Shown here: piece by piece, positions 7,357 to 35,793 of the stretch
Position numbering within the stretch: the stretch's first letter is position 1
Layout: each line of letters begins with the position of its first letter
Assembly: GCA_020431405.1 (NCBI GenBank)
Contig: JAGQIK010000506.1
Location: 1-46,703, forward strand
DNA length: 46,703 nucleotides
Reading direction: 5' to 3'
From: Myxococcales bacterium
GTDB taxonomy: Bacteria > Myxococcota_A > Polyangia > GCA-2747355
Program-made: the position numbers and the translations under genes
Notes under the pieces: model-generated
What the model was told of the DNA's origin: nothing
The model's input: the letters and a program-made list of their open reading frames with translations, nothing else
The model's database searches: none

Positions 7357-7429
7357 TGGCGCGACTTACACCGCGCGCGATGCGAAAGCGCTTTGCGTTG
7401 CTGGTCTCGCGGATGTCACAGTGAACCGC

Positions 7430-7435
7430 TATACT
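7430..7435 (+). promoter_or_regulatory. TATACT -10 element, possible leaderless transcript
   Basis: TATACT is a 5 of 6 match to the -10 consensus and ends 8 nt before the GTG at 7444. The transcription start would fall at or next to the start codon, and no Shine-Dalgarno sequence precedes it. No good -35 hexamer is seen at 16-18 bp. Confidence 0.35.
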
Positions 7436-7443
7436 CGGATCTG

Positions 7444-8415: not shown

Positions 8416-8515
8416 CGACGAGACCAAAGACGCGCCGTTGACCCTCGAAGATACGCTGCCCCCCGAGGAGAGCGGCGTCAGTGCGCGCGGCGCGGCCGAG
8501 CTCGGGCTCGAGCCG

Positions 8516-9508
8516 ATGGCGCCGCTGACGCTGGCCGGCGTCAAGAACACCGACGACCTGCTGCGGCAGATGTCCAAGACGGCGTTCACCGGGCGCCTGC
8601 TCGGTGAAGCGGTTGACGTCGCCGAGGCGATGTTGCGCGACGATTGCCACGTGGTGCTCACGCTCACCGGCGCGATGACCATGGCAGGCCTCAACCCGCT
8701 GATCATCACGATGCTCGAGCGCAAGTGGGTGCACGCCATCGTCTCCACCGGCGCGCTCGTCGGACACGGGTTGGTCGAAGATCTCGGGCTCAAGCACTAC
8801 AAGGCGCGCGGCGACGTCTCCGACGACGACTACCTCGCGCGCCGGCTCAACCGCGTCTACGACACCGTCGAGCCCGAGGACAACCTCGACTCGATGGAGC
8901 GCGTGGTGCGGCGCATCTTCCGCGACCTCGCCAACGCGGGCACCGAGCCGGTGGGCACGCACGAGCTTCTGCGCTTCCTCGGCCAGAAGCTGCCGGGGCG
9001 CGGCGTGCTGCAGACGGCGGCCAAGCTCGGCGTGCCGGTCTACATCCCCGCCTTCACCGACTCGGAGCTGGGGCTCGACTTCGCGGTGCACCTCGAGGCG
9101 CGCCGACGGCTGGGCCGCCAAGTGCGGCTCTACGACGGCTTTCGCGACCTGGTTCACTTTCGCGAGATGTGCGCTGGCGTGATCGCCGATGGGCGCAAGC
9201 TCGGCATCTTCACCGTCGGCGGCGGCGTGCCACGCAACTGGGCGCAGCAGGTCGGTCCCTACGCCGACATTCGCCACAAGCGCATGCAGCTCGAAGGTGA
9301 AGGCGAAGCCGTGCGCTACTGCTACGGCATCCGCATCTGCCCCGACCCCGTGCACTACGGTCACCTCTCGGGCTGCACCTACTCGGAGGGCGTCAGCTGG
9401 GGCAAGTTCATCCCCCGCAGCGAGGGCGGCCGCTACGCCGAGATCCTGCTCGACGCCACCGTGGGCTGGCCCCTGCTTGCCCAGGCCCTCATCGACCGAG
9501 ACCTCTAG
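8516..9508 (+). CDS. Deoxyhypusine synthase family protein
   Basis: A member of the deoxyhypusine synthase (DHS) family, NAD-dependent enzymes that transfer the aminobutyl group of spermidine. Family features include VLTLTGAMTMAGLNPLI near the start, HAIVSTGALVGHGLVEDLG, GIFTVGGGVPRNWAQQ and the active-site segment GVSWGKF, whose Lys297 aligns with the lysine that carries the covalent imine intermediate in human DHS. Start is uncertain: ATG 8516 gives 330 residues; a TTG at 8438 would give 356 and lies 23 nt after the PilZ stop. Bacteria have no eIF5A, so deoxyhypusine formation is unlikely. A homospermidine synthase-like polyamine role is the best guess, as for other bacterial DHS relatives. 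Confidence 0.85.
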   Translation: MAPLTLAGVKNTDDLLRQMSKTAFTGRLLGEAVDVAEAMLRDDCHVVLTLTGAMTMAGLNPLIITMLERKWVHAIVSTGALVGHGLVEDLGLKHYKARGDVSDDDYLARRLNRVYDTVEPEDNLDSMERVVRRIFRDLANAGTEPVGTHELLRFLGQKLPGRGVLQTAAKLGVPVYIPAFTDSELGLDFAVHLEARRRLGRQVRLYDGFRDLVHFREMCAGVIADGRKLGIFTVGGGVPRNWAQQVGPYADIRHKRMQLEGEGEAVRYCYGIRICPDPVHYGHLSGCTYSEGVSWGKFIPRSEGGRYAEILLDATVGWPLLAQALIDRDL

Positions 9509-21477: not shown

Positions 21478-23637
21478 ATGCTCGAAGCCATCCAAAAGGC
21501 ACACCAGCTCGACGTCCACCGCACCGACGAGCAGCAGCACACCATGCTGCGCTTCGAGGGCGTTCTCGACGAATCATTTGGTGGCGCGGAGTTGGCCGGC
21601 ACGGTGCGCAGCGAGGTGCTGGTCCTCGACCTCGCGGGCGTGCGGCGCGTGACGTCGTTCGGCATCCGCGAGTGGTTGCGCTTCATCGAGCAGGTCGGCG
21701 AGCGTTGCCGGCAGATCCTGCTCGTCGACTGTTCGCCGCGCGTCGTGCACCAGCTCAACATGGTCGTGCGCTTCGCCGGCCGCGGTCAGGTGCTCAGCGT
21801 GCTGGCGCCCTACGTCTGCGAGCGCTGCGAGGCGACCTACGACCGGCGCATGGACATCGTCGAGCACGACCAAGAGATCCGCACCTTCGCGCCGGCGGTG
21901 CAGCCGTGCTCGATCTGCGAGGGGCAGGCGGTCTTCGACGATGATCCGGCGCGGTTTTTTGCCTACCTCGCATCGCAGCCGCGCCCGATCGTGCGCCCCG
22001 AGACGGGCGCGTTTCTCAGCCGGCAGCTCGAGGGCTTCAACCTCGGCACCGGCGGCGCCACCGTCAGCGTGGTCAAGGTCGTCGAAGGCGAGCAGACGGT
22101 GATCCGGCTGCTGGGCGAGCTGAACAACACGCTGCCGGTAGAGCAGCTCGTCGAGGGCGTGGAGGGTGAGGTCGCCCTCGATCTGGCCGGGATCACGCGC
22201 CTGACGCCGTCGGGCGCGCACCTGTGGGGCACCTTCGCGGCCGAGCTTCTCGGCGCCGCCGCGCGCGTGCGCATCTTCAGCTGCTCGCCGGCGCTGCTGT
22301 CGCCACTGCGCACGCTGGTGGTGGGCGACGCCACGCCGCTCGAGGTGCACACGGCGACGCTGCCGTACCGCTGCGCCACCTGCTCGACGTCGCTGAGCCG
22401 CGAGATCAGCATCGTCGACGATGCCGAGCCGCTCGCCGGCGGCGTCGCGCCCGCGCGCCAGTGCGTCGACTGCGGCAACGCGCTGCAGTGCGTGGCCGAT
22501 CCGCGCACGCTGGTCGAGCTGTCCGAGCTGAGCGTCCCGATGGACGCGCCGGACGTGCGCGAGCTCGTCGAGAAGGTGCGCAAGTCGAGCGAGGCCGCGG
22601 AGCGGTCCGTCGCCTCGTCGCAGGCGGCGGCGGGGCCGCGCAAGCGCTGGCCTTGGATCGTGGTGGTGAGCACGCTGACGGGGGTCGTCGCGGCGCTCGC
22701 TGTGCTGGCGTTGATGCCGGAGCCCACCGCGCCGCTGCCGCCCAAGCCCAAGTACTACGAGGCGAGCCACCTCGCCGCGCCGCCGTGGCGTGACAAGAAG
22801 ATCTTCAAGGAAGCCTCGGCCGTCTTCGCCGTCGCGCGCTCGACGCTCTCGGGTGACAAAGCCACCGCCTTCGCCGAGGCCTCGCACGCGTCGCTCGAGC
22901 GCATGCTCTATCATCTGCACAACGTGCTGGCGCGCGACTCCGCTTGGGGCGCTCTGATCGCGCCGCACGTGACCACGGTGCGCAAGCAGGCGCTCGGCGC
23001 GCTGGCCAAGCCGCACCCCGAGGACATCGCGCGCCTCGAGGCCGCGCGCCGCCGGGTGCGCTCGGCGCGCCAGCGTATCGCCAAGTCGTGGGCCGAGACA
23101 TCGCATCACCTCGTGCCGCCGGTGGTCGAGGCCAACTACTGGGAGAGCTACCGCAAGAACAACCAGGTCGCCTACCGCGTGTGGGCGCGATCGCGCATCA
23201 CGTCGCTCAACTTCGACAAGGCGCGCGAGCATTACTCGAAGCGCTGGGAGCTGCTCGGCAGCAAGGTCGTGACGTTCTTCCCGCTGCTGTGCTGGACCAA
23301 TCGCACGCTCGATCGCGGCGCCGTCGTCGCCTCGGTGACCGGCAAGCTCGAGAAGGCGGGGCTCAAGGTCGGCGACATCGTCACGAGCGTCAACGAAGCG
23401 CGTGTCAGCGACGGCGAGTCGCTGCTCAAGCTGGTCGAGCGTACGGCGGCCAAGCTGAGCAAGGCCGGCGGCGAGCTCGTGCTCGACGTGGCGCGCATCG
23501 ACGACGGCAGCACGCGCCAGGTCAAGCTGACGATCAAGAAGAGCGCCTACCGCGGCGGCGGTGGCGGCGGCGGAAGCTCCGGCGGGCCGCGCACCATGCC
23601 GCCAGCCAATATTTTCCACGCCGACCCGTCCAAGTAG
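21478..23637 (+). CDS. Double STAS-zinc-ribbon transmembrane protein with PDZ-like C-terminus
   Basis: A 719-residue protein with a rare domain order. STAS-like domain 1 (about 5-110) is followed by zinc ribbon 1 (C114/C117 and C144/C147). STAS-like domain 2 (about 195-290) is followed by zinc ribbon 2 (C299/C302 and C329/C332). One transmembrane helix (391-413) separates these from a helical periplasmic region (430-610) and a PDZ-like domain (612-687), ending in a Gly-rich tail. STAS strands read VLDLAGVRRVTSFGIREW and ALDLAGITRLTPSGAHLW; the canonical phospho-Ser position is Phe61 in the first but Ser245 in the second. It heads a five-gene operon ending in a SpoIIE phosphatase. I infer a membrane-spanning anti-anti-sigma-like adaptor; function is not established. 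Confidence 0.75.
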   Translation: MLEAIQKAHQLDVHRTDEQQHTMLRFEGVLDESFGGAELAGTVRSEVLVLDLAGVRRVTSFGIREWLRFIEQVGERCRQILLVDCSPRVVHQLNMVVRFAGRGQVLSVLAPYVCERCEATYDRRMDIVEHDQEIRTFAPAVQPCSICEGQAVFDDDPARFFAYLASQPRPIVRPETGAFLSRQLEGFNLGTGGATVSVVKVVEGEQTVIRLLGELNNTLPVEQLVEGVEGEVALDLAGITRLTPSGAHLWGTFAAELLGAAARVRIFSCSPALLSPLRTLVVGDATPLEVHTATLPYRCATCSTSLSREISIVDDAEPLAGGVAPARQCVDCGNALQCVADPRTLVELSELSVPMDAPDVRELVEKVRKSSEAAERSVASSQAAAGPRKRWPWIVVVSTLTGVVAALAVLALMPEPTAPLPPKPKYYEASHLAAPPWRDKKIFKEASAVFAVARSTLSGDKATAFAEASHASLERMLYHLHNVLARDSAWGALIAPHVTTVRKQALGALAKPHPEDIARLEAARRRVRSARQRIAKSWAETSHHLVPPVVEANYWESYRKNNQVAYRVWARSRITSLNFDKAREHYSKRWELLGSKVVTFFPLLCWTNRTLDRGAVVASVTGKLEKAGLKVGDIVTSVNEARVSDGESLLKLVERTAAKLSKAGGELVLDVARIDDGSTRQVKLTIKKSAYRGGGGGGGSSGGPRTMPPANIFHADPSK

Positions 23638-23641
23638 GGTT

Positions 23642-24688
23642 ATGCCCCGCGTCTCGGTCACGATCACGATCACGATCGCGGTCGCGCTGCTCACTGCGCT
23701 GCTCACTGCACCGGGTGCGGCGCGCGCCGAGAGCCGCGCCGGTTGGCTCAAGCGTGAAGCGCGCGTCGCGACGCAGGCCGCCGAGACCGAGCGCGCGATC
23801 CGCCTCTGGCGCGCCTACTCGCGCATCGACCGCAGCACGGCCGTGCTCAAGCAGCTCTCGCGCTTGCTCGAGGGCGCGGGCCGCGCCGAGGAGGCGGCGC
23901 TGGTGCTCGAAGAGGCCATCGCGCGCGGCAAGGGCGACGCCAGCGTGCAGGCGCAGCTGTCGCAGCTTCGCCGCAAGCGCTCCTCGGTGGCTTATCGATC
24001 GCGCGAGCGCGACCAGCGCCGCGAGACCAAGCTCGCCAAGCGTGCCTTCGCCAAAGGGCGCAAGCTCGGCCTCTCGGGCAAGCTGCGCCTCGGCTCGCGC
24101 TATCTCGAAGCCGCCGTCGTGCTCGACCCGCGCCTGCCCGGCATCTACCGCGTGCTCGGCGCCATCTACATCAAGATGGGCCGCAAGAAGGCCGGCTACT
24201 CGCACCTCGCGGACTACCTGCGCATGCGCCCTGGCGGCGTGCTGGCCAACAAGGCGCGCCGCATGCTGCGCGGCCGCGGCGTGCTCGGCAGCGTCCGTGC
24301 GATGTCGTCGTATTCGTGCAACCTGTGGGTCAACGGCGAGTGGCTGGGCATGCGTTCGCCCACCAAGCGCCTGACGCTGCCCGAAGGGACGTTCGTGCTG
24401 ACCTTCTCGTCGCCCAAGTTCCACGTACAGAAGAGCTACCGTGTCAACGTCAGCGCCGGAGAGACGACGACGGTACGATTCGATTTTGGTATCATCGACG
24501 TCGACCTCAAACCCTGGGGTCGCATTCGTGCAAATGGGCTGGACCTCGGCCTCTGGCCCAAGCTGGGACTGCCAGCGGGCACCTACAATCTGTTCGTGCA
24601 AAGTCACGATGGCAAACGCAGCGGTCGAGCTCGGTGGACGGTGCAGGCAGGGAAGTCACGTCGTCTGACGTGGAAGTCGCTGCGGTGA
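23642..24688 (+). CDS. Secreted TPR-PEGA protein
   Basis: A 348-residue exported protein. A signal peptide ends at about residue 29 (PGAARA). Helical TPR-like repeats follow (about 35-215), then a PEGA-type beta domain (about 222-285: CNLWVNGEWLG, LTLPEGTFVLTFSSPKFHVQKSY, VNVSAGETTTVRFDF) and a second similar beta segment to the end. PEGA domains are common in surface and secreted proteins of Myxococcota and often accompany Ser/Thr kinase or sensor genes. The ATG is 4 nt after the STAS gene's stop, so it belongs to the same operon. Probable periplasmic partner of the PDZ region of the upstream protein (inference). Confidence 0.7.
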   Translation: MPRVSVTITITIAVALLTALLTAPGAARAESRAGWLKREARVATQAAETERAIRLWRAYSRIDRSTAVLKQLSRLLEGAGRAEEAALVLEEAIARGKGDASVQAQLSQLRRKRSSVAYRSRERDQRRETKLAKRAFAKGRKLGLSGKLRLGSRYLEAAVVLDPRLPGIYRVLGAIYIKMGRKKAGYSHLADYLRMRPGGVLANKARRMLRGRGVLGSVRAMSSYSCNLWVNGEWLGMRSPTKRLTLPEGTFVLTFSSPKFHVQKSYRVNVSAGETTTVRFDFGIIDVDLKPWGRIRANGLDLGLWPKLGLPAGTYNLFVQSHDGKRSGRARWTVQAGKSRRLTWKSLR

Positions 24689-24736
24689 ACAGAGCGCCGA
24701 CTAGAAACAAGCGGGTCATAAGGATCGGAGGTTGAC

Positions 24737-27175
24737 GTGAGGCAATCGTTGCTTTGCGCCGTCTCGCTGCTGGTGATGCTGCCCTTCGTCGCGCCGACGG
24801 CGCGCGCGCAGCAGCGCCACTTGGGGCAGGGCAAGCACGAGCAGCTGCTGCGCGAGGGGCAGAAGGCCGAGCAGGCGGGTGACGAGGCGCGCGAGCGCAA
24901 GGACACCAGCGAGGCCAACAAGCACTACCGCAAGGCGATCACGCTCTACACGCAGGCATGGCAGGTCAAGGCGGACTATCTCCCCGTCTACGTGCGCCTG
25001 TCGCGCGTCTACCTGGTGATGTCCAAGCACCGCGCGGCGATGTCGGTGCTCAAGCGCGCGCTGCTCAAGTTTCCCGACAACATCGATCTCAAGGAGCAGC
25101 TCGCACTGCACCAGATCCTCGGCGGCTACAAGCGGCAGGGCATCGCCAACCTCGAAGAGGTCATCAAGAAGCGGCCCAACAAGCTGCCGCTGCTGGTCGA
25201 GCTGGCCAACCACTACCGCGACAGCAAGCAGCCCAAGAGGGCGGTGCCGGTGCTCGAGCGCATCCTCGCGCTCAGGCCGCGTGCCTACAACCGGCGCGTC
25301 GAGCTCGGACGCGCGCTGATCCAGCTGCGTCGCTACGACGACGCGCTGGCTTCGTTTCGCCAGGTGCCGGCGGGCAAGTTCTACCTGCCCGCGCGCGTGG
25401 GCGTCGCCGATCTGCTGCGCCGCCGCGGCGACGCCGAGAAGGCGCTCGCCATCTACAACGCCGTCGAGCACAAGCTGCCCGCGGGTCCCAAGCGCAAGCA
25501 CGTCGCGCTGGGCATCGCGCACAGCTTGCGCATGCTCGGCCGCCACGAAAAGGCGCTCGAGCGCTACATCGTCTACAACCAGCGCTCGCCTGGCGACTCG
25601 CGCGGCTTCTATGGCGCTGGCATGTCGCTGCTGGCCCAGGGGCGGCCCAAGCAGGCCGTCAAGCAGCTCGAATACGCCAACCAGCGCTACCCGGGATCGA
25701 CGCGCATCCTCTCGGCGCTGGCGCGCGGCTACCTCGCCGTGGGCAAGATCAAGGGCGCGATGGCGGTGCAGAAGCGCGCCGTCGCGCTGGCGCCCAAGGA
25801 CTGGCACCTGCATAGCGCCATGGGGCAGCTGCAGCGGCGCGCCGGCGACGTGCAGGGCGCGCTGTCGGTGCATCGCAAGCTGGCCTCCTCGCGCGCGTGG
25901 TCTGCCAAGATCGCAGCCGAGATCGGCCACGACTACTACTACCTCGGCAAGCTCAAGCAGGCGCGCGCCGCCTACAAGCGCGCGCTGTCGCGCAAGGGTC
26001 AGAGGCGTCACAAACGCGCCGCGCGCATCGGGCTGGTCTTGATCGGGCTGCGCGAGGCTGAAGCGCTGATCGGCAAGCGGCGTCTGCCGCAGGCCGAGGC
26101 GATGCTCGAGAAGCTGCTGCGACACAAGCAGCTCACCGGGCGGGTCTACGAAGTGCTGGCTGCCATCGCGCTCGAGCGCGGCAACGAAAAGCGCGCGCTG
26201 TCGCTGCTCGGCAAGGCGCGCGGCGGCACGGCGCTCGCCGCGCTGGTGCGCGCACACGCGGCGCTGCGCGCTGGCAAGGCGCCCGAGGCGATGAAGGCCT
26301 TGGCGACGATCAACCTCGGCGATCTGTCGTCGGCCTCGGCGCGCGTGGTGCTGCTGACGCGCGCTGCCGCCGAGATCGCCACCAAGCGCTACGACGACGC
26401 GATCCGCCGGCTCAAGGGGCTCAAGGGCAAGGCGCGTGCCGAGCTGCTCGCGTTCGCGCTGCTCGAGCGCGCCAACCAGCGCTATCGCGAACGCCGTCCG
26501 GCGCCGGCGCTCAACGACCTGACCGCCTTCGATCGCCTCAAGCGCCGCGCTTCGCGCGCCGAGAAGAAGCGCGTGGCGCTGCTGCGCTCGCTGGCGGCGG
26601 CGGAGACGGGCAACAAGGCGGCCGCGCTCAAGTCACTCAAGCGCTTCAAGCGCATGCGGCGGCCGGAGATCCTCGAGCCGCGCATGCGCTCGGGGCAGGC
26701 ACGCGCGCTGCTCGAGGCGTATATCTTGATGCGTGTCGGCGCCCACCAGCAGGCGATGAAGCTGGCCGGACGCTCGCTGCGCGGTCGCTCGCGCGGCGCC
26801 GCGCTGCCGATCTACCGCGCAGCGGCGGCGACGCTGGCCTACGGGTTCTTGGCCCGCGGCAACAGCAGGCAGGCCGGTCGCGCGCTGGCGGCGCTGCAGA
26901 AGCAGGTCAAGACCCTCAACGCCAAAGAGCAGCTGCTCGCCGCGTGCGTGGCGTACGCGCAGGGTCGCAAGAACGAGGCGCTCAAGTCGTTCCGCGCGCT
27001 GTCGGGCAAGCTGCCCGAGGCGCAGCTCGACCTCGGCATCTACTTCGACGAGGTCAAGCGCGACAAGAAGGCGGCCTTCAATCAGTACGTGGCGTACGTA
27101 CGCCGCAAGGGGCGCGTGGCGCTGCCGCGGGTCAGACGTTGGATCGAGATCAAACGCCGGGTGTTCAAGTTCTGA
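24737..27175 (+). CDS. Secreted TPR-repeat protein
   Basis: An 812-residue exported protein made almost wholly of tetratricopeptide repeats. The signal peptide ends PTARA-QQ. TPR units are obvious, for example HYRKAITLYTQAWQVKADYLPVYVRLS, YDDALASFRQVPAGKFYLPARVGVA and HEKALERYIVYNQRSPGD, continuing to the C-terminus. The GTG start is preceded by GGAGG with 5-nt spacing. It overlaps the PhnD-like gene (TGATG). A periplasmic scaffold is the likely role; the location inside a phosphatase/STAS operon suggests it holds a sensing complex together, which is inference. Confidence 0.78.
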   Translation: MRQSLLCAVSLLVMLPFVAPTARAQQRHLGQGKHEQLLREGQKAEQAGDEARERKDTSEANKHYRKAITLYTQAWQVKADYLPVYVRLSRVYLVMSKHRAAMSVLKRALLKFPDNIDLKEQLALHQILGGYKRQGIANLEEVIKKRPNKLPLLVELANHYRDSKQPKRAVPVLERILALRPRAYNRRVELGRALIQLRRYDDALASFRQVPAGKFYLPARVGVADLLRRRGDAEKALAIYNAVEHKLPAGPKRKHVALGIAHSLRMLGRHEKALERYIVYNQRSPGDSRGFYGAGMSLLAQGRPKQAVKQLEYANQRYPGSTRILSALARGYLAVGKIKGAMAVQKRAVALAPKDWHLHSAMGQLQRRAGDVQGALSVHRKLASSRAWSAKIAAEIGHDYYYLGKLKQARAAYKRALSRKGQRRHKRAARIGLVLIGLREAEALIGKRRLPQAEAMLEKLLRHKQLTGRVYEVLAAIALERGNEKRALSLLGKARGGTALAALVRAHAALRAGKAPEAMKALATINLGDLSSASARVVLLTRAAAEIATKRYDDAIRRLKGLKGKARAELLAFALLERANQRYRERRPAPALNDLTAFDRLKRRASRAEKKRVALLRSLAAAETGNKAAALKSLKRFKRMRRPEILEPRMRSGQARALLEAYILMRVGAHQQAMKLAGRSLRGRSRGAALPIYRAAAATLAYGFLARGNSRQAGRALAALQKQVKTLNAKEQLLAACVAYAQGRKNEALKSFRALSGKLPEAQLDLGIYFDEVKRDKKAAFNQYVAYVRRKGRVALPRVRRWIEIKRRVFKF

Positions 27176-28140
27176 TGGCGATGACGACGATGACGATGAC
27201 GAAGATGAAGCGATCTCTCCTCTCGCAACGCAGCCCGCGGCTGGCGTTCGCTCTGCTGCTGGCGTGCGCGTGCCTTTCGTCGGCACCGGCGGCGGCGCAG
27301 AAGCGGCTCAGCCTCGGTGTGTTCTTGCCCACCGTGCCGGGCGTCTCGCGCGCCGACCGCTTCGCCGCCGCGGGCCGACTGGCGACGTTTCTCGGCAAGC
27401 GCGTGGGCGTGACGGTGACCGGGCGCAGCTTCGCCGCGAGCAACCTGATCAAGCGCGGCACGGTGCAGATCGCGATCGTGCCGGCGCAGCTCGCCGCCGA
27501 GCGCGGCTGGACGGCCTTCGCCGCGCTTCGCCGCGGCGGCGGCGCGCGCGCGACGTGGGCAATCTACGCCAAAGGGGCCACACGGCTCACCGAGCTGGCC
27601 AACAAGACGGTGGCTGTCACGCGCGTGGGCGGCAAGGACAGCCGCTTTGTCACCAACGTGATGCTCGAGCGCGAGGTCGGCGCCGGCTACTTCAAGTGGG
27701 CGCGCTTCGTCGACTGGGACGCGACGATCAAGGCGGTGAGCTTCGGTCGCGCGCAGGCAGTGGTGGTCCGCTCCAACGCCAGCGTCAGCGGTCTGACGCG
27801 GGTCTTCACGTCGCGCGCGCTGCCCAACCCGGTGGCCGTGTTCGTCTCGCCGCTGCCCAAGGCGACGCGCGACAAGGTCGCCGCCGCGCTGCAGAGCTAT
27901 CCCGGCGGTTGGCTCGGATTCTCCGGCTTCACCAAGATCGGCGCTGCCACGATCCGCACGCTGCGTGGCCAGCTGCTCGCCGGGCGGCGCGGCAAGCGCG
28001 TCGTGGCGGCGCGGCCGGACGGCTTCGCGTTGCCCACGCGCGCGATCGTCGCCGCCGACGCGAGCGCGCCCAAGCCGCCTTCGGCGCTCGCCCTCGTCGA
28101 GCCGCCCAAGCTCAAGCCAGACGTGGCGGCCGAACGATGA
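27175..28140 (+). CDS. PhnD-like periplasmic solute-binding protein
   Basis: A 321-residue secreted protein of the phosphate/phosphonate-binding (PhnD-like) fold. The signal peptide ends SAPAAAQ. The mature start LSLGVFLPTVPGVSRADRFAAAGRLATFLGKRVGVTVTGRSF and the AIVPAQLAAERGW, NKTVAVTRVGGKDSRFVTNVMLE and VSFGRAQAVVVRSN segments match the two-lobe binding-protein pattern. The beginning has several in-frame ATGs in an ATGACG-type repeat (27175, 27181, 27190, 27196, 27205); the one at 27205 gives the cleanest signal peptide. No ABC permease or ATPase is nearby. The gene overlaps the HAMP-PP2C phosphatase by 4 nt, so it more likely presents a ligand to that sensor than feeds a transporter. Confidence 0.72.
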   Translation: MAMTTMTMTKMKRSLLSQRSPRLAFALLLACACLSSAPAAAQKRLSLGVFLPTVPGVSRADRFAAAGRLATFLGKRVGVTVTGRSFAASNLIKRGTVQIAIVPAQLAAERGWTAFAALRRGGGARATWAIYAKGATRLTELANKTVAVTRVGGKDSRFVTNVMLEREVGAGYFKWARFVDWDATIKAVSFGRAQAVVVRSNASVSGLTRVFTSRALPNPVAVFVSPLPKATRDKVAAALQSYPGGWLGFSGFTKIGAATIRTLRGQLLAGRRGKRVVAARPDGFALPTRAIVAADASAPKPPSALALVEPPKLKPDVAAER

Positions 28141-29750
28141 GCCAGGCTGTCGTCGCACCCGACGCCGAGACGCCACGGGCGCCCGCGCCGAGGCGCCGCT
28201 CGCTTTCGGTGCTGACCAAGATGATCCTCTACGCGGCGGCCCTCGTCGCCGTGGTCGTCGCGGCGGTGAGCACGCTCGATCTGGTCGAGCTGCTGCGCAC
28301 CTACGACGAGCGCGCCAAGGCGCAGGAGAAGCTCGGTACGGCGGCGATCCAGCGCGAAGGCCAGGCCACCGCGCGCGGCATGGCGGTCAGCCTCGCCCCC
28401 GCGCTGGGCGAGTTCAATACCAGCCTCATCGGCGAGGTCGTGCAGTCGACGACGCGCGACAACCGCTACGTGCTGCGCGTGCTGGTGGCCGAGACGGTCG
28501 AGACGCCGGGCAAGGTCGTGGCGCAGAGCGGATTCGCCGATCCCCCCAAGACCGTCAAGCTGCTCTCCAAGGGCCAAAAGCCGGCCGAGCCGAAGGAGAT
28601 CAAGACCAGCAAGGGGCGCGCGCTGCTGCTGGCGGTGCCGATCATCTACGGCGGCAAACGCGTGGGCGAAGTGCGTGTCGCGTACTCGCTCAACGAGCTG
28701 GACAAGCAGCTCGCGCGCATCCAGAGCCAGCGCGCCAAGGCCAAGCAGTCGGGCATTCTGCGCTCGGGTCTGGTCGGACTTTTGTGCGTGCTGTTCGGCC
28801 TGGTGCTCGCCATCGGGCAGGGGCTGCAGGTCTCGCGGCCCGTGCGCGCCCTGGCGCACGGCGCGACAGCGATCGCCGAGGGCAACCTCGGGGCGCGCGT
28901 CGAGGTCAAGTCGCGCGACGAGTTCGGCGCGCTCGGCGCGACATTCAACTTCATGGCCGAGCGTATCCAGGTGCTGCTGCGCGAGACCGCCGACAAGGTC
29001 ACGCTGCAAAACGAGATGGAGATCGCGCGCAACGTGCAGGACCTGCTGGTGGCGCCGCCCAAGCTGGTGCGCCACGGCGATCTGTCGCTGGCCGGCTTCT
29101 ACCAGCCGGCGAGCTTCTGCGGCGGCGACTTCTGGAACTACTTCAACATCGACGAGACCAAGACGCTGCTGGTCATCGGCGACGTCACCGGTCACGGCGT
29201 CTCTTCAGCGATGTTGACCGCTACCGCTAAGAGCTGCTGTGACACGCTGCAGGCCACGCTCGGCAGCAGCCTCGACATCTTGCAGCTGATGAAGACGCTC
29301 AACTTCGTCATCTTCCAGGCGGCCAAGCGCCACCTGCAGATGACGTGCTTCATCACGCTCTTCGATCAGGCCGAGCGCAAGATCGTCTACGCCAGCGCCG
29401 GTCACCCGATGCCGTACCTGTGCCGCAAGATGGACGACGGGCGCTATGACATCCGCACGCTGATCGCGCGCGGCAACCGCCTGGGCGACCTGCTCGAATG
29501 GGACTTCCCCGCCTACACGATGGACCTGCAGCGCGGCGACGTGCTGCTGTTCTTCACCGACGGCATCACCGAGGGCGAAAACCCGCTCGGCGAGCAGTGG
29601 GGTGAAAAACGGCTGCGTCGCGCCTTCCACCGCAACGCGGCGCTGGCGCCCGACGAGCTGCGCGATCTGCTCGTCAAGAACGCGTTCGAGTTCTATCGCG
29701 GCACGGCGCCCGACGACGATCTGACCGTGGTGGTGGCGCGCGCCGAGTAG
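28137..29750 (+). CDS. Membrane HAMP-SpoIIE (PP2C) serine phosphatase, RsbU-like
   Basis: A 537-residue sensor phosphatase. Transmembrane helix 1 (about 28-46), an extracytoplasmic sensor domain (47-205), helix 2 (207-229), HAMP (230-283), the RsbU/IcfG-type linker NEMEIARNVQDLL and a SpoIIE-type PP2C domain (315-536). All metal and catalytic motifs are intact: GGDF (D331), GDVTGHG (D349), ASAGHP, FFTDGITEG (D475) and PDDDLTVVVAR (D526-D528). Such enzymes dephosphorylate STAS anti-sigma antagonists in partner-switching circuits. It is the last gene of the operon, following the PhnD-like binding protein with a 4-nt overlap; STAS proteins are encoded in the same operon and just convergent to it. 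Confidence 0.9.
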   Translation: MSQAVVAPDAETPRAPAPRRRSLSVLTKMILYAAALVAVVVAAVSTLDLVELLRTYDERAKAQEKLGTAAIQREGQATARGMAVSLAPALGEFNTSLIGEVVQSTTRDNRYVLRVLVAETVETPGKVVAQSGFADPPKTVKLLSKGQKPAEPKEIKTSKGRALLLAVPIIYGGKRVGEVRVAYSLNELDKQLARIQSQRAKAKQSGILRSGLVGLLCVLFGLVLAIGQGLQVSRPVRALAHGATAIAEGNLGARVEVKSRDEFGALGATFNFMAERIQVLLRETADKVTLQNEMEIARNVQDLLVAPPKLVRHGDLSLAGFYQPASFCGGDFWNYFNIDETKTLLVIGDVTGHGVSSAMLTATAKSCCDTLQATLGSSLDILQLMKTLNFVIFQAAKRHLQMTCFITLFDQAERKIVYASAGHPMPYLCRKMDDGRYDIRTLIARGNRLGDLLEWDFPAYTMDLQRGDVLLFFTDGITEGENPLGEQWGEKRLRRAFHRNAALAPDELRDLLVKNAFEFYRGTAPDDDLTVVVARAE

Positions 29751-29764
29751 CGCGCCGCGCGCTA
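29748..29764. terminator. Hairpin spanning two convergent stop codons
   Basis: TAGCGCG-CCG-CGCGCTA is a perfect inverted repeat (7-bp arms, 3-nt loop) that contains the TAG stop of the PP2C phosphatase and the TAG stop of the convergent STAS gene. It could act as a compact bidirectional terminator. There is no T tract on either side, so it would not be a classic intrinsic terminator. Confidence 0.4.
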
Positions 29765-30295
29765 AGAGGCGCTGCCGAGGAACATGAAGTAGCGGTCGGG
29801 CAGATCGTCGAACTCGACCGACGCGCCGCAAGCATTGCACGTGTGGGCGTTGGCCGCGACGAGCGCCTCCGGCTCCGCGCCGGCGTTTTCGACGTCGATG
29901 GTCTCGACCTGCTCGGCCTCGCACGCAGGACAGGCATAGGGCGCCATCACCGAGGTGATGCGCGCGCTGCCGCGAAAGTTGTGCACGGTGTTGAGCTGCA
30001 CGACGATGGCGAGCGAGCAGCGCTGCAGCACGAGGTCTTCGACCGACTCGAGCTCGCGCATCATCAGGATCCAGTCGCGCACGCCGACCGAGTTGATGCG
30101 GCGCACGTCGCCCGCGTCGATGACGATGCGGCGCGCGCCGCTCTGCTTGAGCTCCTCGGCGAGGTCGAGCAGCGCGTTGCGCTCGTCGATGATCCCCGAG
30201 AGCTTCACCTCGAGCGTGTCGCCCCTGCGCTCGAGGGCGGCAGATACTTGCGGCTGGTCGGCCGTCATTCCGCCTGCAGCGTCGCCGCTTGCCAT
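29762..30295 (-). CDS. STAS-zinc-ribbon protein
   Basis: A 177-residue cytosolic protein: a STAS-like domain (about 15-118) then a zinc ribbon (C122/C125 and C153/C156) with the ending EFDDLPDRYFMFL. The same module occurs twice in the protein starting at 21478, where the linker and ending (VLAPYVCERCEA, VFDDDPARFFAYL) clearly match. The STAS phosphosite loop reads INSVGVRDW: Ser69 sits one position before the canonical phospho-Ser, which is Val here. It may therefore be a constitutively non-phosphorylated binding partner or use Ser69. It is downstream of the pseudokinase in a two-gene unit (27-nt gap). Confidence 0.78.
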   Translation of the reverse strand: MASGDAAGGMTADQPQVSAALERRGDTLEVKLSGIIDERNALLDLAEELKQSGARRIVIDAGDVRRINSVGVRDWILMMRELESVEDLVLQRCSLAIVVQLNTVHNFRGSARITSVMAPYACPACEAEQVETIDVENAGAEPEALVAANAHTCNACGASVEFDDLPDRYFMFLGSAS

Positions 30296-30322
30296 GACCC
30301 TAAACTCCCATACGCCGGGCCG

Positions 30323-31972
30323 TTACATCAACAGGTAGATGCCGATGACGGTCAGCAATGCCACGGCGCACGCGCCGAGGGCGATATAGAGCCACATACG
30401 GGCCGTACGATCGATTCGCGTCTGGGTCTTGGTGTTGCCGCTGGCGCCGGCGCGTGGCCGCTTGGGCAGCGGCGACACGACACTGCCGCTGACCTTGCGC
30501 ACGCTGGTGCTGATCGGCCGGCGTTGGCGCCGAACGTCGCGCGTGGTGAGCCGCATCAGACCGCCGCCGTGCGGCGCGGCGGTGACTTGTGTGCTGCTGG
30601 TGGTGGGTCGCCCGCGCGGCAGCGGGCGCGCCGCCGAGTGCGAGTCCTCGAGCGTGCTGATCTCCCGTGTAGGCACGCGGCGCATGCCGGTCTTTTCCTC
30701 GCGCGGCGGCAGCGGCGCGTCGGGATCGAGCGGTGCGGCGCGCACGCCCGAGCCGCCGCCCTCGCCCTCGGGGCCAGGGCTGCTGCCGCCGGCGGCGGTG
30801 GGCCGAGACGAGAGCCCGGGGCGTACGAGCGACTGAAAGCCGTCGAAAGCGACGGTGGGGGGCTCGCCGAGGTCCTCCCAGTCCACCGGCAGCACCGGCT
30901 GGTCCTCTTCGTCGCGCGGTCGCAGCGCCGCATCCGGCGAAGGCTTGGGCAGCACGGTGGCCCGATCGATGGCGTTCTCGACCGCGTCTTGCACCAGGCC
31001 GACCTTGGTGTCGGCGCCCATCACGTCCGAGGCTGACGAATCGGACGCGTCGTCGTCGTCGTCGCCGCTGTCGCCCGTCGAGCTGGCGCCGTCGCCACCG
31101 CTGCCGTCGTCGTCGTCGTCGCCGCCGCCGGCGTGGCGGGCGCGGATGCTGATCGGCGCCGCGGGCAGCGGCGTGAGGAAGTGCGAGAGGCTGGCGACCA
31201 GCGTCTCGGCCTCTTCCTCGTCTTCCTCGCCGCTGGTTACGCGCTGGGGCAGCGCTGGATCCGCGGCGGCGCGCTCGCGCTGGCGGGCGACCCAGCTGGC
31301 GACGGAGATCGGCTCGTCGAGCTCGGAGGAGAGGCGGCCGAGCGCACGCGCCAAGGCGGCGAAGTCGCCCTCGTCGTCGTCTTCGTCGGCATCTTCGTCG
31401 TCGCTGCCCGCGTCCTCGTCGAGCGCGAGGCGCCCGCGTTCGACGACATCGTCGAGCAGGAGGCGCAGCGTGCCGCCGGCACAGAGCCCCGAGAGCAGCC
31501 GCGCCACCGCCTGCAGCGTGGGCAGCGGCGCGCCGAGGCGTGCCCCCGCCAGCTTGACCTCGCCGCGCTGAGTCAGGCCGATCTCGGCGAGCGTCAGCTC
31601 GAACCCGATCTCGCCGCCGGCCACGTGGTTGAGCACGCTGCACAGCGCGTGTCCGACCTCGAGCACCACCGAATCGGGCAGCACCATCTCCGACGCGAGC
31701 GAAAGCAGCGGCTCGTGGTCGTCCAGCGCCACGTAGTAGCGGCCTTCGAGCAGGCCGTAGTCGACCACGCCGCGGGCGTTGGGATGCTCGAGCTGCTCGA
31801 GCGCTCGCGCCTGGGCGATCAGCGCGCTGGCGTCCTCGCGCTTGGCGATCGCCAGCTCCACGCGGCGGGTCGCGCCGTCGATCGCAGCGCGCGCCACCCA
31901 GCGCTGCACGTCGTCAGACTCGCTTAGCGGCTCGACGATCTGGTAGGGACCGAGTAGCTTCGGTCTTGCCAT
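30323..31972 (-). CDS. Tail-anchored pseudokinase (Hanks-type fold)
   Basis: A 549-residue protein. Residues 5-150 follow the Hanks kinase N- and C-lobe pattern (LLGPYQIVEPLSESDDVQRWVARA, ARALEQLEHPNARGVVDYG, GRYYVALDDHEPL, GEVKLAGARLG), but key residues are lost. The glycine loop is Ser/Glu/Asp rich, no HRD motif is present (FELTLAEIGL in its place) and DFG is replaced by AGA. It should be catalytically dead. Then come acidic and low-complexity stretches (poly-Asp at about 285-307), a Pro/Arg/Ser-rich linker and a single C-terminal transmembrane helix (526-548), giving a tail-anchored cytoplasmic protein. It forms an operon with the STAS-zinc-ribbon gene and is divergent from the HATPase gene. 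Confidence 0.72.
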   Translation of the reverse strand: MARPKLLGPYQIVEPLSESDDVQRWVARAAIDGATRRVELAIAKREDASALIAQARALEQLEHPNARGVVDYGLLEGRYYVALDDHEPLLSLASEMVLPDSVVLEVGHALCSVLNHVAGGEIGFELTLAEIGLTQRGEVKLAGARLGAPLPTLQAVARLLSGLCAGGTLRLLLDDVVERGRLALDEDAGSDDEDADEDDDEGDFAALARALGRLSSELDEPISVASWVARQRERAAADPALPQRVTSGEEDEEEAETLVASLSHFLTPLPAAPISIRARHAGGGDDDDDGSGGDGASSTGDSGDDDDDASDSSASDVMGADTKVGLVQDAVENAIDRATVLPKPSPDAALRPRDEEDQPVLPVDWEDLGEPPTVAFDGFQSLVRPGLSSRPTAAGGSSPGPEGEGGGSGVRAAPLDPDAPLPPREEKTGMRRVPTREISTLEDSHSAARPLPRGRPTTSSTQVTAAPHGGGLMRLTTRDVRRQRRPISTSVRKVSGSVVSPLPKRPRAGASGNTKTQTRIDRTARMWLYIALGACAVALLTVIGIYLLM

Positions 31973-32026
31973 CGTCTATCGCGAGCCTCCCGGCGCGCTC
32001 AGGCGCGCCAGACTGGGGAGATCAAG

Positions 32027-32032
32027 TATACT
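32027..32032 (+). promoter_or_regulatory. TATACT -10 element of the HATPase-tldE-tldD operon
   Basis: TATACT (5 of 6 to consensus) lies about 35 nt before the ATG at 32067 in the divergent interval between the pseudokinase and HATPase genes. No convincing -35 was found at 16-18 bp. Confidence 0.35.
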
Positions 32033-32066
32033 CTTGCGCTCGCAAAGGGCCAAAGACCTCAGCATC

Positions 32067-33002
32067 ATGAGCACTAGCGCCATCGCCGTGATCGTAGACC
32101 ACGCCGCCCGCGCGCGTCAGACCGCGCGGCTGTTGCAGGCGGCGGGCATGCGCACCGAGGTCGCCGAGGGCGGCATCGACGGCCTGATGCTGGCCGACGA
32201 ATGCGCCTTCGTGTTGGCTCCGATCTCGGCGCTTCAGGCGCTCGATACGCTGACGGCGTCACGCGGCGTGCCGCTGCTGCTGATGCGCGACGAGGGCGAC
32301 CCGACGCACATCGCGGCGGCGGCCGAGACGGCGAGCGTGGGCGGGCTGATCGGTCTACGTTATCCAGGTGCCGCGCCGCGCGCCTGGGAGCTGCTCTCGC
32401 TGGCGCGCCGCTTGCGCTCGAGCGAGCCGCCGCCGGTGCGCGCGCCGCTGAGCTGGGGCGCGACCTACAGCGAGACGGAGCTGTCGCGAACCGCGCAGCG
32501 CGACGCGCTCACGACGCAGGTCGAACAGTACGCCGAGCCGCTGGTCGGGCCGCGCAAGGCGGGGCGCCTCGCCGAGGTCGCCCACGAGCTGATCATGAAC
32601 GCGATGTACGACGCCCCGGCCGACGCGCAGGGGCGCCCGCTGTTCGCCGCCGACCGCAAGGCCGACATCACGCTCGAGCCGGCGCAGCGGCCGCGCTTCG
32701 GCTACGGCTGCGACGGCGAGCGCTTCGTGCTCTCGGCACGCGATCCGTTCGGACGTCTTTCGCGCAAAGACTTCTTCGGCGGCCTCGCGCGCGGCGTGGG
32801 CAAGGGCAGGCTCGATACATCGGGCGGCGGCGCGGGCCTCGGCTTCACGCTGATGCACGACGGCGGCACGCTGCTGTTTGCCGACGTGGTGCCGGGCAAG
32901 CTGACGCAAGTGGTGGTGGTGCTCGAGCTCGACGTGCCGACGCGCGAGCTGCGCACCCTGCCGCGCTCTCTGCACTACTTCGAGCACAGGTCGGCGGCTT
33001 GA
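32067..33002 (+). CDS. Pseudo-receiver/HATPase protein, RsbW-like
   Basis: A 311-residue cytosolic protein. Residues 1-120 look like a response-regulator receiver (AIAVIVDHAARARQTARLLQAAGMRTEVAEGGIDGL) but lack the phospho-acceptor: the segment that should hold Asp reads FVLAPIS. Residues 150-290 are a GHKL ATPase domain: N box HELIMNAMYDAP (E174, N178), G1 box RDPFGRL (D226), G2 box SGGGAGLGF (252-260). There is no HisKA or dimerisation domain with a phospho-accepting His, so it resembles anti-sigma kinases such as RsbW. It would pair naturally with the STAS proteins and PP2C phosphatase encoded upstream. Its stop overlaps the TldE gene's TTG start. Confidence 0.78.
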   Translation: MSTSAIAVIVDHAARARQTARLLQAAGMRTEVAEGGIDGLMLADECAFVLAPISALQALDTLTASRGVPLLLMRDEGDPTHIAAAAETASVGGLIGLRYPGAAPRAWELLSLARRLRSSEPPPVRAPLSWGATYSETELSRTAQRDALTTQVEQYAEPLVGPRKAGRLAEVAHELIMNAMYDAPADAQGRPLFAADRKADITLEPAQRPRFGYGCDGERFVLSARDPFGRLSRKDFFGGLARGVGKGRLDTSGGGAGLGFTLMHDGGTLLFADVVPGKLTQVVVVLELDVPTRELRTLPRSLHYFEHRSAA

Positions 33003-34381
33003 GCGGCGCGGGCGGGGACGGCTCGAGCGACGCGGGGGCGCGGGCGCTGGGCACGCTCGTCGACGACCCGCTCGACGAGGCGCTGCTCGAGCGCGCCGGC
33101 GAGGAGCTCTCGCGGCGCGGCGCTGACAACTGGGAGGTGTTCGCCGCCTACGGCCGCTCGACGGCGGTGGCGGCGCGCAGCGAGGGGCGCATCGAGGCAT
33201 CGCTCTCCGATGGCGCGGGGCTGGGGCTGCGCGTGCTGGTCGGCGGGCGGCCGGGCTTCGCCTTCGCCGGCTCGCTGTCGTGGGCGGCGGTGCAGGCAGC
33301 TTGCGGGCTGTGCATCGAGTCGGCGCAGCTGATGGAGGTCGACGAGCACGTCTCCTTCGCCGAGCGCTCGCTCGACGACACGCGCCCGCTCGACGTCTAT
33401 CACGCCGAGCTGCTGCAGCTGTCGCTCGAAGAGCAGGTCGAGATCGCGCGCGCGCTCGCCATCGACGCGGCGCGCCAGGCGCAGGTCGAGGCGCTCTATC
33501 TCGACAACAGTGTCTACTTCGAGCGGCTCGTCACGTCGGCGGGCGCTCGCTTCAGCGCGCGCTCGACCACGCAGACTTACGAGGCCTGCATGCTGGCGGG
33601 CGCCGGCGGTGATCGCGGCCGAGGCCACAGCTACGGCATCAGCAGCCGCGCGCTGGATCTGGCGGCGCTGACGCGCGAGGCCTCGCAGCAGGCCAACGCG
33701 ATGGTCGACGCGGGCCCGGTAGCGAGCGGACGCTACGACGTGGTGCTCGCCCCGGCCATCGTCGAGGATCTGCTGTCTGACCTGTGCTACGCGCTGTCGG
33801 GCTACGAGGCGCTGGCGGGCCGCACGATGTTTGCCGAGCTCGTCGGCGAGCGCGTGGGCAGCGACCTCATCGATCTCGTCGACGATCCGCTCGATCCGCG
33901 CCTCGGCTTCGCGCGCTATGACCACGAGGGCACGCCGCACCAGAAGGTCGCGCTGATCAGCGGCGGCGTGCTGCAGACGCTGCTCTACGATCGCAGCACC
34001 GCGTCTCGAGCTGGCGTGGCCAACACGGCACACGCCGAGCGCGGCAGCTACGAGAGCCCGCCGACGCCCGGTGTCTCGGCGCTGCGCCTGGCGCCGGGTG
34101 ATCGCAGCGTCGACGAGCTGCTCGCCGAGATGGGAGACGGGCTGCACCTCGTCGACACCACCGACGTCGAGATCGATGCCAGCAGCGGCGAGCTGTCGGC
34201 GGGCGCGTCGGGTTTTGTCGTGCGCCACGGCCAGCGTGCCGAGCCGCTCGACGGCATCGTGCTCTCGGCCTCCATCGTCGATCTGCTCTGCAGCGTGCGC
34301 GCGGTGGGCAGCGACCTGCGCTACAGCGGCTTCGCCACGCCGAGCCTGCTCGTCGAGGGCCTCGAGGTGGCGGGCACATGA
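32999..34381 (+). CDS. pmbA: TldE/PmbA-family metalloprotease subunit
   Basis: A 460-residue member of the TldD/PmbA (U62) family and, like TldE, without the HExxxH zinc motif; it would be the non-catalytic partner. Recognisable segments are the N-terminal VFAAYGRSTAVAARSEGRIEASLSDG, VVLAPAIVEDLLSDLCYALSG, PRLGFARYDHEGTPHQKVALISGGVLQTLLYDRSTASRAG and the terminal SGFVVRHGQRAEPLDGIVLSASIVDLL. The start is a TTG overlapping the HATPase stop (TTGA); no ATG or GTG lies nearby. It overlaps tldD by 4 nt, the classical pair. TldD-TldE degrades or matures unfolded peptides such as microcin precursors and CcdA in E. coli. Confidence 0.85.
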   Translation: MSGAGGDGSSDAGARALGTLVDDPLDEALLERAGEELSRRGADNWEVFAAYGRSTAVAARSEGRIEASLSDGAGLGLRVLVGGRPGFAFAGSLSWAAVQAACGLCIESAQLMEVDEHVSFAERSLDDTRPLDVYHAELLQLSLEEQVEIARALAIDAARQAQVEALYLDNSVYFERLVTSAGARFSARSTTQTYEACMLAGAGGDRGRGHSYGISSRALDLAALTREASQQANAMVDAGPVASGRYDVVLAPAIVEDLLSDLCYALSGYEALAGRTMFAELVGERVGSDLIDLVDDPLDPRLGFARYDHEGTPHQKVALISGGVLQTLLYDRSTASRAGVANTAHAERGSYESPPTPGVSALRLAPGDRSVDELLAEMGDGLHLVDTTDVEIDASSGELSAGASGFVVRHGQRAEPLDGIVLSASIVDLLCSVRAVGSDLRYSGFATPSLLVEGLEVAGT

Positions 34382-35793
34382 GCGGCGACGATCTACTCGC
34401 GGCGCTGTCGCTCGACAGCGCGCCGCTTTTGCGCGCGGCGGGCGCGCGCGGCGGCGACTACGCCGAGCTGTTCGCCGAGGCGCACGAGGTGCGCTACGTC
34501 GTGATCGATGACGGGCGCATCGAGCGCGTCACCGCCGGCAGCGAGATCGGTATCGGCGTGCGCGTGCTGCGCAAAGACCGCGTCGGCTACGCCAGCGGCA
34601 ATGTCGTCACGCAGGCGGCGGCGACCGAGCTCGCGCAGGCAGCCGCCACCGCGGCGCGCGCCGCCTCGGGCACGCAGGACGGCCCAGCTCAGCACATCGC
34701 CGCGTCGCGCGCGCAGCCCGTCGAAGCGGCGACAGCGCTGTCTCGCGAGCCCAACGGGCTGAGGGCGCTGCGCGACATCGCGCAGGCGGCCGAAGCGGCG
34801 GCGCGTGCGGCGGGCAAGGAGATCACGCAGGTCGCCGTCACCGCCATCGAGGGCCTGCGTACGGTCGCCATCGCAGCGAGCGATGGCCGCTACGTCGTCG
34901 ACGTGCAGCCAGCGGCGCGCGTTTCGGTGACGGCGACGGCGACGCGCGGCGAGCGTCTGCACTCGCGCATGCAGCCGCTCGCCAATCGCGGCTTCGACGC
35001 CATCGACATCGCCTCGGCCGAGCGCACCGGGCGTCTCGCCGCCGAGGCCGCGCTGCTGGCGCTGCGCGCGCGTCGTGCGCCGTCGGGCTCGATGCCGGTG
35101 GTGCTCTCGTCGAGCGCCGGCGGCACGTTCATCCACGAGGCGCTCGGCCACGGCCTCGAAGCCGACGCGGTCTATAGCGACGCGAGCATCTACGCCGGGC
35201 GTATCGGCGACGTGGTCACCTCGCCGCTGCTGTCGGTGGTCGACGACGCGACCATCGGGCAGCGCGGCTCCTACGGCTGCGACGACGAAGGCACGCCAGC
35301 CGAGCGCACCGTGCTGGTCGACGGCGGCGTGCTGCGCAGCTACCTGTTCGACCTTCTGCACGCACGCGCGATGGGTGCGCGCTCGACCGGCAACGGCCGG
35401 CGCGAGACCTACGAGGACGCGCCGATCCCGCGCATGTCGAACATCTTTATCGTGCCGGGCGCAGGTGATCCCGAGGCGATCGTGCGCGACACGCACAGCG
35501 GGCTTTTTGTCACACGGATGGGCGGCGGCGAGGTCGACGCCGCCAGCGGCGACTTCGTCTTCGACGTTAGCGAGGGCTACGTCATCCGCAACGGCGAGCT
35601 GGCCGAGCCGGTGCGCCGCGCGACCATCGCCGGCAACGGCCCCAAGGTGCTGATGTCGATCGATCGTGTCGGCAGCGACCTCGGCTTCGACGTCGGAAGC
35701 TGCGTCAAGGAAGGGCAGTCGGTGCCGGTATCGGACGCCCAGCCGACGCTGCGCGTGCCGGTGATGGTGGTCGGCGGCTCGGGCGCGGACTAG
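34378..35793 (+). CDS. tldD: TldD-family zinc metalloprotease
   Basis: A 471-residue TldD homologue, the catalytic subunit of the TldD-TldE protease. The zinc motif is FIHEALGHGLEAD (H253, E254, H258), followed by the conserved GRIGDVVTSPLLSVVDD, GSYGCDDEGTPAERTVLVDGGVLRSYLFD and NGRRETYEDAPIPRMSNIFIVPG segments. ATGA overlap with the TldE gene and 4-nt overlap of that gene with the HATPase gene place all three in one operon. Linkage to a partner-switching protein suggests that proteolysis or peptide maturation is part of the same response; this is inference. Confidence 0.9.
   Translation: MSGDDLLAALSLDSAPLLRAAGARGGDYAELFAEAHEVRYVVIDDGRIERVTAGSEIGIGVRVLRKDRVGYASGNVVTQAAATELAQAAATAARAASGTQDGPAQHIAASRAQPVEAATALSREPNGLRALRDIAQAAEAAARAAGKEITQVAVTAIEGLRTVAIAASDGRYVVDVQPAARVSVTATATRGERLHSRMQPLANRGFDAIDIASAERTGRLAAEAALLALRARRAPSGSMPVVLSSSAGGTFIHEALGHGLEADAVYSDASIYAGRIGDVVTSPLLSVVDDATIGQRGSYGCDDEGTPAERTVLVDGGVLRSYLFDLLHARAMGARSTGNGRRETYEDAPIPRMSNIFIVPGAGDPEAIVRDTHSGLFVTRMGGGEVDAASGDFVFDVSEGYVIRNGELAEPVRRATIAGNGPKVLMSIDRVGSDLGFDVGSCVKEGQSVPVSDAQPTLRVPVMVVGGSGAD

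Follow-up and report, generated by a model that had tools for sequence, protein, structure and literature searches.

A probable transmembrane partner switch of STAS-zinc ribbon proteins, a SpoIIAB-like HATPase, and a HAMP-PP2C phosphatase in a myxobacterial genome

An 11.5 kb stretch of a myxobacterial genome encodes a phosphatase, STAS-like proteins, and an HATPase, which raises the question of whether these proteins form one membrane-linked partner switch and, if so, on what that switch would act. The window, by which we mean the whole stretch of DNA that was analyzed (46,703 nucleotides), is one entire contig, C305, of a GC-rich host genome of 11.2 Mb in 733 contigs. All of the genes that an earlier sequence-only reading had listed in the flagged region (21478-33002) are real, lie at the coordinates it gave, and have a coding-like composition (Table 1). 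Conserved neighborhoods, gene fusions, active sites, and the distribution of a Ser residue strongly support the central claim of that reading, namely that the phosphatase, STAS, and HATPase proteins are parts of one membrane-linked partner switch. Based on sequence, predicted structure, and conserved gene order, our current hypothesis is that the parts in the window quite probably make up a switch that is transmembrane and likely sigma-free.

Table 1. Genes of the flagged region and the adjoining TldE/TldD pair. Coordinates are those of the window.
Product	Coordinates	Strand	Length	Remarks
(STAS-zinc ribbon)x2-TM-PDZ protein (P0001)	21478..23637	+	719 aa	
Exported TPR/PEGA-like protein	23642..24688	+		Signal peptide judged from sequence
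Exported TPR protein	24737..27175	+	812 aa	Signal peptide judged from sequence
PhnD-like periplasmic binding protein	27175..28140	+		Pfam Phosphonate-bd 3.9e-7
HAMP-SpoIIE-type PP2C phosphatase	28137..29750	+	537 aa	Pfam HAMP 2e-14, SpoIIE 1e-37
Stand-alone STAS-zinc ribbon protein (P0005)	29762..30295	-	177 aa	
Kinase-like pseudokinase (P0006)	30323..31972	-		Long acidic linker, C-terminal TM
Degenerate receiver-SpoIIAB/RsbW-like HATPase (P0007)	32067..33002	+	311 aa	Predicted Ser kinase
TldE-like protein	32999..34381	+		Start overlaps HATPase stop; linkage not conserved
TldD	34378..35793	+		Adjacency to switch not conserved

The phosphatase consists of a transmembrane helix (TM, residues 29-47), a periplasmic region, a second TM (212-230), a HAMP domain, and a SpoIIE-type PP2C domain. 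Together with the Pfam domains, this order bears out the earlier description of a SpoIIE-type PP2C with HAMP and two membrane helices. The metal-binding Asp residues (331, 349, 475, and 528 in the window protein) are invariant in 21 of 21 sequences, as in a SpoIIE/RsbU-type PPM phosphatase. The start of the phosphatase gene shares 4 nt with the 3' end of the gene for the PhnD-like protein; both this protein and the two secreted TPR proteins of the earlier reading are present. Gene order suggests that the PhnD-like and TPR proteins may take part in control of the phosphatase.

The STAS proteins of the window score under the Pfam cut-offs. In the model of P0001, the best match of the STAS fold is SpoIIAA (1th8 chain B, Z 12.0), and since this match spans the zinc ribbon, the ribbon appears to be an insertion ahead of the final STAS helix. 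The ribbon Cys residues are found at positions 114/117/144/147 and 299/302/329/332 of P0001 and 122/125/153/156 of P0005. The three predicted STAS-like domains with zinc ribbons (STAS-ZnR), two in a membrane protein and one stand-alone, thus hold up. P0001 has Ser60 at the position of SpoIIAA Ser58 in its first STAS domain (STAS1) and Pro244 there in its second (STAS2), and P0005 has Ser69. Across 157 distinct STAS-ZnR domains, each of the four ribbon Cys is retained in 89-96%. Ser occupies the SpoIIAA Ser58 position in all but one of the 59 single domains and, where domains come in pairs, in all 49 that stand first and none of the 49 that stand second; the latter mostly have Pro, Ala, Glu, or Asp. 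This split (107/108 versus 0/49) is as expected if first domains are phosphorylated at this Ser and second domains are fixed, and it gives nearly every single or first domain the phosphorylatable residue of a STAS antagonist. P0001 also contains a single TM (394-412) and a PDZ domain (592-690) that is predicted to be periplasmic; its model matches HtrA-type PDZ domains as well. This C-terminal PDZ was missing from the sequence-only reading. The VIA-align lists barely cover some parts of the models, such as P0001 residues 425-590, where other folds are possible.

P0007 has zero matches in Pfam. Sequence searches of the PDB with P0007 and P0005 returned nothing useful, the FabL/FabI matches to P0005 being weak and short, and the folds were therefore predicted by model. 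The AlphaFold2 model of P0007 (pLDDT 90) shows a receiver fold and a SpoIIAB fold. By structure comparison, the N-terminal half matches receiver domains and the C-terminal half matches SpoIIAB (1th8; best Foldseek match, 5e-6; VIA-align Z 11.7 over 130 residues, rmsd 2.3). The nearest folds to the HATPase domain are SpoIIAB and RsbW, in a comparison that left out RsbT. The ATP-site residues E174, N178, and D226 and the GxGxG motif (GGAGLG; G255/G257/G259) are invariant in 28 aligned sequences. This conservation leaves the N-box, G1, and G2 intact, as in a GHKL (Bergerat) Ser kinase with the fold of SpoIIAB/RsbW. The receiver is without the phospho-acceptor Asp, a residue present in many relatives. 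The earlier proposal of an RsbW-like HATPase fused to a dead receiver is consistent with both halves of the model.

The dead Hanks kinase with a C-terminal anchor that had been proposed for P0006 stood in part. The protein is kinase-like and has a TM at residues 530-548, a Pfam kinase match is absent, and the HRD and DFG motifs are not recognizable. As a conserved part of the system it did not stand, since no orthologue was found in 28 relatives beyond weak kinase matches. The idea that P0006 arose by decay from the conserved C4 kinase was dropped, the similarity between the two (1.3 bits) being too weak to judge. Kinases do recur beside the switch in relatives, but these look active.

A search with P0007 gave matches in 37 of 96 genomes of relatives. 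In 19 of the 20 genomes of the class that were fetched, the double-STAS-TM-PDZ gene immediately follows the HATPase gene, mostly with a divergent TPR-PEGA gene and a gene for a Hanks kinase with recognizable Lys and DFG beside the pair. A second unit, often located elsewhere in the genome and with a second HATPase nearby, has the order giant TPR (∼2050 aa)-STAS-ZnR-TM-PAS-HAMP-PP2C-TPR-PhnD-STAS-ZnR-PAS-histidine kinase, and the order PP2C-TPR-PhnD is retained in relatives. Both units share one contig in G045, G079, and G026; elsewhere among the relatives they often occupy different contigs. The window combines the two units in merged and shuffled form.

Across all loci of this analysis, a home-made gene finder gave no calls or no useful calls for L055, L077, L173, L174, and L178, and the adjacency in L055 was taken from search coordinates. 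Related HATPase loci were also compared in a named collection (Kofleriaceae, Polyangiaceae, Sorangium cellulosum, and other Myxococcota), and their origins make Polyangia the probable class of the host. In this collection, a STAS-ZnR gene lies within 10 kb of the HATPase in 40 of 50 loci, and a STAS-ZnR or PP2C gene is linked in 46 of 50. Because the genomes, 3-11 Mb in size, carry 1-23 STAS-ZnR genes each, this linkage argues that the grouping is not due to chance. In most relatives the HATPase and STAS genes are adjacent or fused, and all three parts are genetically linked in the window as well as in L107, L161, L163, L167, L170, L176, and L177. In Sorangium cellulosum So ce26 (L107), four genes form a compact cluster: HATPase, PP2C, FIST-(STAS-ZnR)2-TM, and kinase-(STAS-ZnR)2-TM-PDZ. 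A complete cluster occurs outside the class in low-copy genomes, namely L161, with the order giant TPR, STAS-ZnR-TM, PAS, HAMP-PP2C, one further gene, TPR, PhnD, and HATPase, and similarly L163. Other clusters outside the class, in L167 and L170, contain an HATPase gene, a STAS-ZnR gene, a gene for PAS with an output domain, and a kinase-PP2C fusion, and a single-domain soluble STAS-ZnR is paired directly with the HATPase in L167, L169, L170, and L176. The sequence-only reading had named the lack of a conserved neighborhood in relatives as a ground for refutation, and this refutation fails, as the STAS-ZnR, PP2C, and HATPase genes do keep such a neighborhood.

Hanks kinase, HATPase, and STAS-ZnR are joined in one polypeptide of 817 aa in G003 (L039), and the same fusion occurs twice in the host genome (L180, 1108 aa; L187, 765 aa), where the L180 gene faces a TPR-PhnD-PP2C operon. 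These fusions are strong evidence that the three domains work together. In total, the host genome contains ∼12 STAS-ZnR domains, together with three PP2Cs of the window type and at least seven P0007-family HATPases. STAS-ZnR genes are missing from the surroundings of one group of HATPase paralogues (most of L131-L158), so P0007-type HATPases are not bound to one circuit.

With regard to output, no sigma domain was found in the conserved neighbor families scanned with Pfam. A PAS family gave 19 strong matches in 12 whole genomes; 17 have a STAS-ZnR gene within ∼1.1 kb, one has it at a distance of 7 kb, and one is at a contig end. Its outputs vary between PAS alone, PAS-HisKA-HATPase, and PAS-GGDEF (GGDEF by Pfam in L167 and L169). 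The PAS gene is absent from the cluster in the window, and copies are found on host contigs C104, C136, and C31. Judged from gene order, this dedicated PAS family is the likeliest candidate for the target.

From these data we infer a mechanism with its reaction directions, ligand, sensor, target, and output. The HATPase domain of P0007 would phosphorylate Ser69 of P0005 and Ser60 in STAS1 of P0001, and the HAMP-PP2C would strip the phosphate from the STAS-ZnR Ser. The PhnD-like and exported TPR proteins, encoded in the operon of the phosphatase, would sense a periplasmic signal that sets PP2C activity via the periplasmic region and HAMP domain of the phosphatase. The phosphorylation state of STAS-ZnR would then choose its partner, either the HATPase or a target. 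One putative target is the family of PAS proteins (PAS alone, PAS-histidine kinase, and PAS-diguanylate cyclase); in most clusters their genes adjoin the STAS gene, but in the host genome they lie outside the cluster of the window. Another is the double-STAS-TM-PDZ protein, which may in turn relay the state to the periplasm. The Hanks kinases are possibly a second input. Sequence, fold, and synteny support the parts together with their catalytic residues, as well as the pattern of the phospho-Ser and the gene linkage. A fuller version of this scheme is offered tentatively, as a possibility that we hold at somewhat less than even strength: a bidirectional, sigma-free switch in which STAS-ZnR, set by the HATPase and a periplasm-sensing PP2C, would act on a PAS family whose output was swapped in evolution (none, histidine kinase, or diguanylate cyclase) and would signal outward via the TM-PDZ STAS protein.

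Other readings of the cluster have to be weighed against this scheme. P0007 could be the anti-sigma factor of a classical sigma switch, in which the STAS-ZnR proteins would serve as its antagonists and the sigma gene would lie elsewhere. This would agree with the closeness of its HATPase fold to SpoIIAB and RsbW and with LvrC, the nearest full-length architecture, which is read as an anti-sigma factor without a known sigma partner (PMC13269768). However, a sigma domain was not found among the neighbor families tested and PAS is consistently beside STAS-ZnR, and we consider a sigma switch unlikely, if still a serious contender. Slightly more doubtful is a stressosome-like scaffold, in which tandem STAS domains would sequester the HATPase, and the HATPase would act like RsbT, on the phosphatase or a PAS protein, and not as the RsbW-type kinase of a free antagonist. 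The tandem STAS proteins, which are membrane-anchored and pair a phosphorylatable domain with a fixed one, are what such a scaffold would need, but the soluble single-domain STAS-ZnR proteins paired with an HATPase argue against it, as do the nearest folds among those compared, SpoIIAB and RsbW.

The sequence-only reading had suggested the TldE/TldD protease, the genes of which overlap the HATPase gene, as the final target of the switch. The HATPase stop does overlap the TldE start in the window, but the overlap is private to the host genome, and in the relatives searched TldD is on other contigs or far off. This candidate was rejected; with TldD elsewhere in relatives it is unsupported as the target, and control of the protease is very improbable. 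Least credible is a chance neighborhood in a signaling-rich myxobacterial genome, which we regard as next to negligible. The frequent separation of the two units in relatives and the restriction of the pseudokinase and TldDE to the host genome would fit with chance, but synteny contradicts it, in that the grouping is conserved across families and in other classes and is reinforced by fusions.

The preferred reading, a probably sigma-free partner switch, can be placed next to known systems. SpoIIE/SpoIIAA/SpoIIAB and RsbU/RsbV/RsbW of Bacillus share the PP2C, a STAS protein with Ser at the same position, and a Bergerat kinase with the same ATP residues. In contrast to these, the cluster in the window adds a zinc ribbon to STAS, a receiver-like domain to the kinase, and a membrane-spanning STAS protein with PDZ; it has PhnD and TPR genes beside the phosphatase, sigma linkage was not found in the conserved neighbor families scanned, and most clusters of relatives have a PAS companion. 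SiaABCD of Pseudomonas aeruginosa shares a HAMP-PP2C membrane phosphatase, a GHKL-like kinase (SiaB fold match Z 9.8), and a diguanylate cyclase among the partners, comparable to PAS-GGDEF in L167 and L169. The best NCBIfam match of the window PP2C is SiaA (NF038263, 3.6e-21), with 75 bits against a cut-off of 700, which falls short of a SiaA orthologue. SiaC is not a zinc-ribbon STAS. The kinase of the clusters described here keeps the SpoIIAB ATP motifs and has PhnD, TPR, and PAS companions. LvrC of Leptospira, the top full-length structural match of P0007, likewise fuses a receiver to an RsbW-like domain. The LvrC receiver is canonical and is phosphorylated by LvrB (PMC13269768), whereas P0007 does not have a canonical receiver with a phospho-acceptor Asp and is linked to STAS-ZnR and PP2C genes.

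The same expansion of families has been noted in a relative of the host. The parts of the Sorangium cellulosum account consulted here report 13 SpoIIE-like phosphatases, 71 COG1366 proteins, and STAS domains fused to eukaryotic-like kinases, and call the function of the STAS proteins unknown (Treuner-Lange 2010, PMC2887360). Within those parts, the zinc ribbon, the HATPase pairing, the PAS companion, the conserved cluster, and the circuit are not described (PMC2887360). An open-access literature search on STAS zinc ribbon partner switching and Sorangium or Myxococcota returned this as the sole relevant paper, and as the search covered open-access work only, an earlier description is possible. 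The word "undescribed" in the sequence-only reading thus calls for qualification, since the Sorangium expansions and STAS-kinase fusions and the receiver-Bergerat protein LvrC were on record (PMC2887360, PMC13269768).

The myxobacterial phylum is known for predation and multicellularity. Relatives of the cluster recur throughout this phylum and are hardly described, and the system is a real, class-wide, and little-described variant of Rsb/SpoIIA partner switching. Proteins that Pfam missed or under-scored become a defined, phylum-wide signaling family, which may explain the many SpoIIE-like and STAS proteins of Sorangium. The PAS family is a concrete and testable candidate target; through it, partner switching would be connected with two-component and c-di-GMP signaling. 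A kinase-phosphatase switch thus appears to link the exterior and the interior of the cell without the usual transcription factor.

In Sorangium cellulosum So ce26, the 1640-aa FIST-STAS-zinc-ribbon protein is a sensor joined directly to the proposed partner switch. At locus L170, outside the class, the 1672-aa kinase-phosphatase protein adjoins HATPase, STAS-zinc-ribbon and PAS-output genes. The giant TPR protein, for which homologues were found in 8 of the 8 genomes searched, is perhaps a scaffold.

Features of the window and of related loci
Feature	Location	Strand	Remark
FIST sensory domains, two STAS-zinc-ribbon units and TM (1640 aa)	L107:12051-16973		Sorangium; one protein
Hanks kinase, AAA, TPR, GAF and SpoIIE phosphatase domains (1672 aa)	L170:3774-8792	-	outside the class; single protein
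TPR protein (~2050 aa)	L060:2551-8688		kept upstream of STAS-zinc-ribbon-TM
FadL-type outer-membrane, conserved unnamed and deoxyhypusine-synthase-family proteins	window 6025-9508		
HATPase homologue of the L131-L158 group, with TM and TPR/PEGA-like C-terminus	L188:7390-9531		window's genome

In the relative's genome G003, homologues of the FadL-type protein and its two companions (L039:14123-17362; 53-66% identity to the window proteins) lie directly 3' of the receiver-HATPase gene. In many relatives, the double-STAS gene is followed by a FadL-type protein.

A big set of related HATPases was also found at paralogous loci (L131-L158), most of which have no STAS-zinc-ribbon close by, and this group possibly represents a further signalling family.
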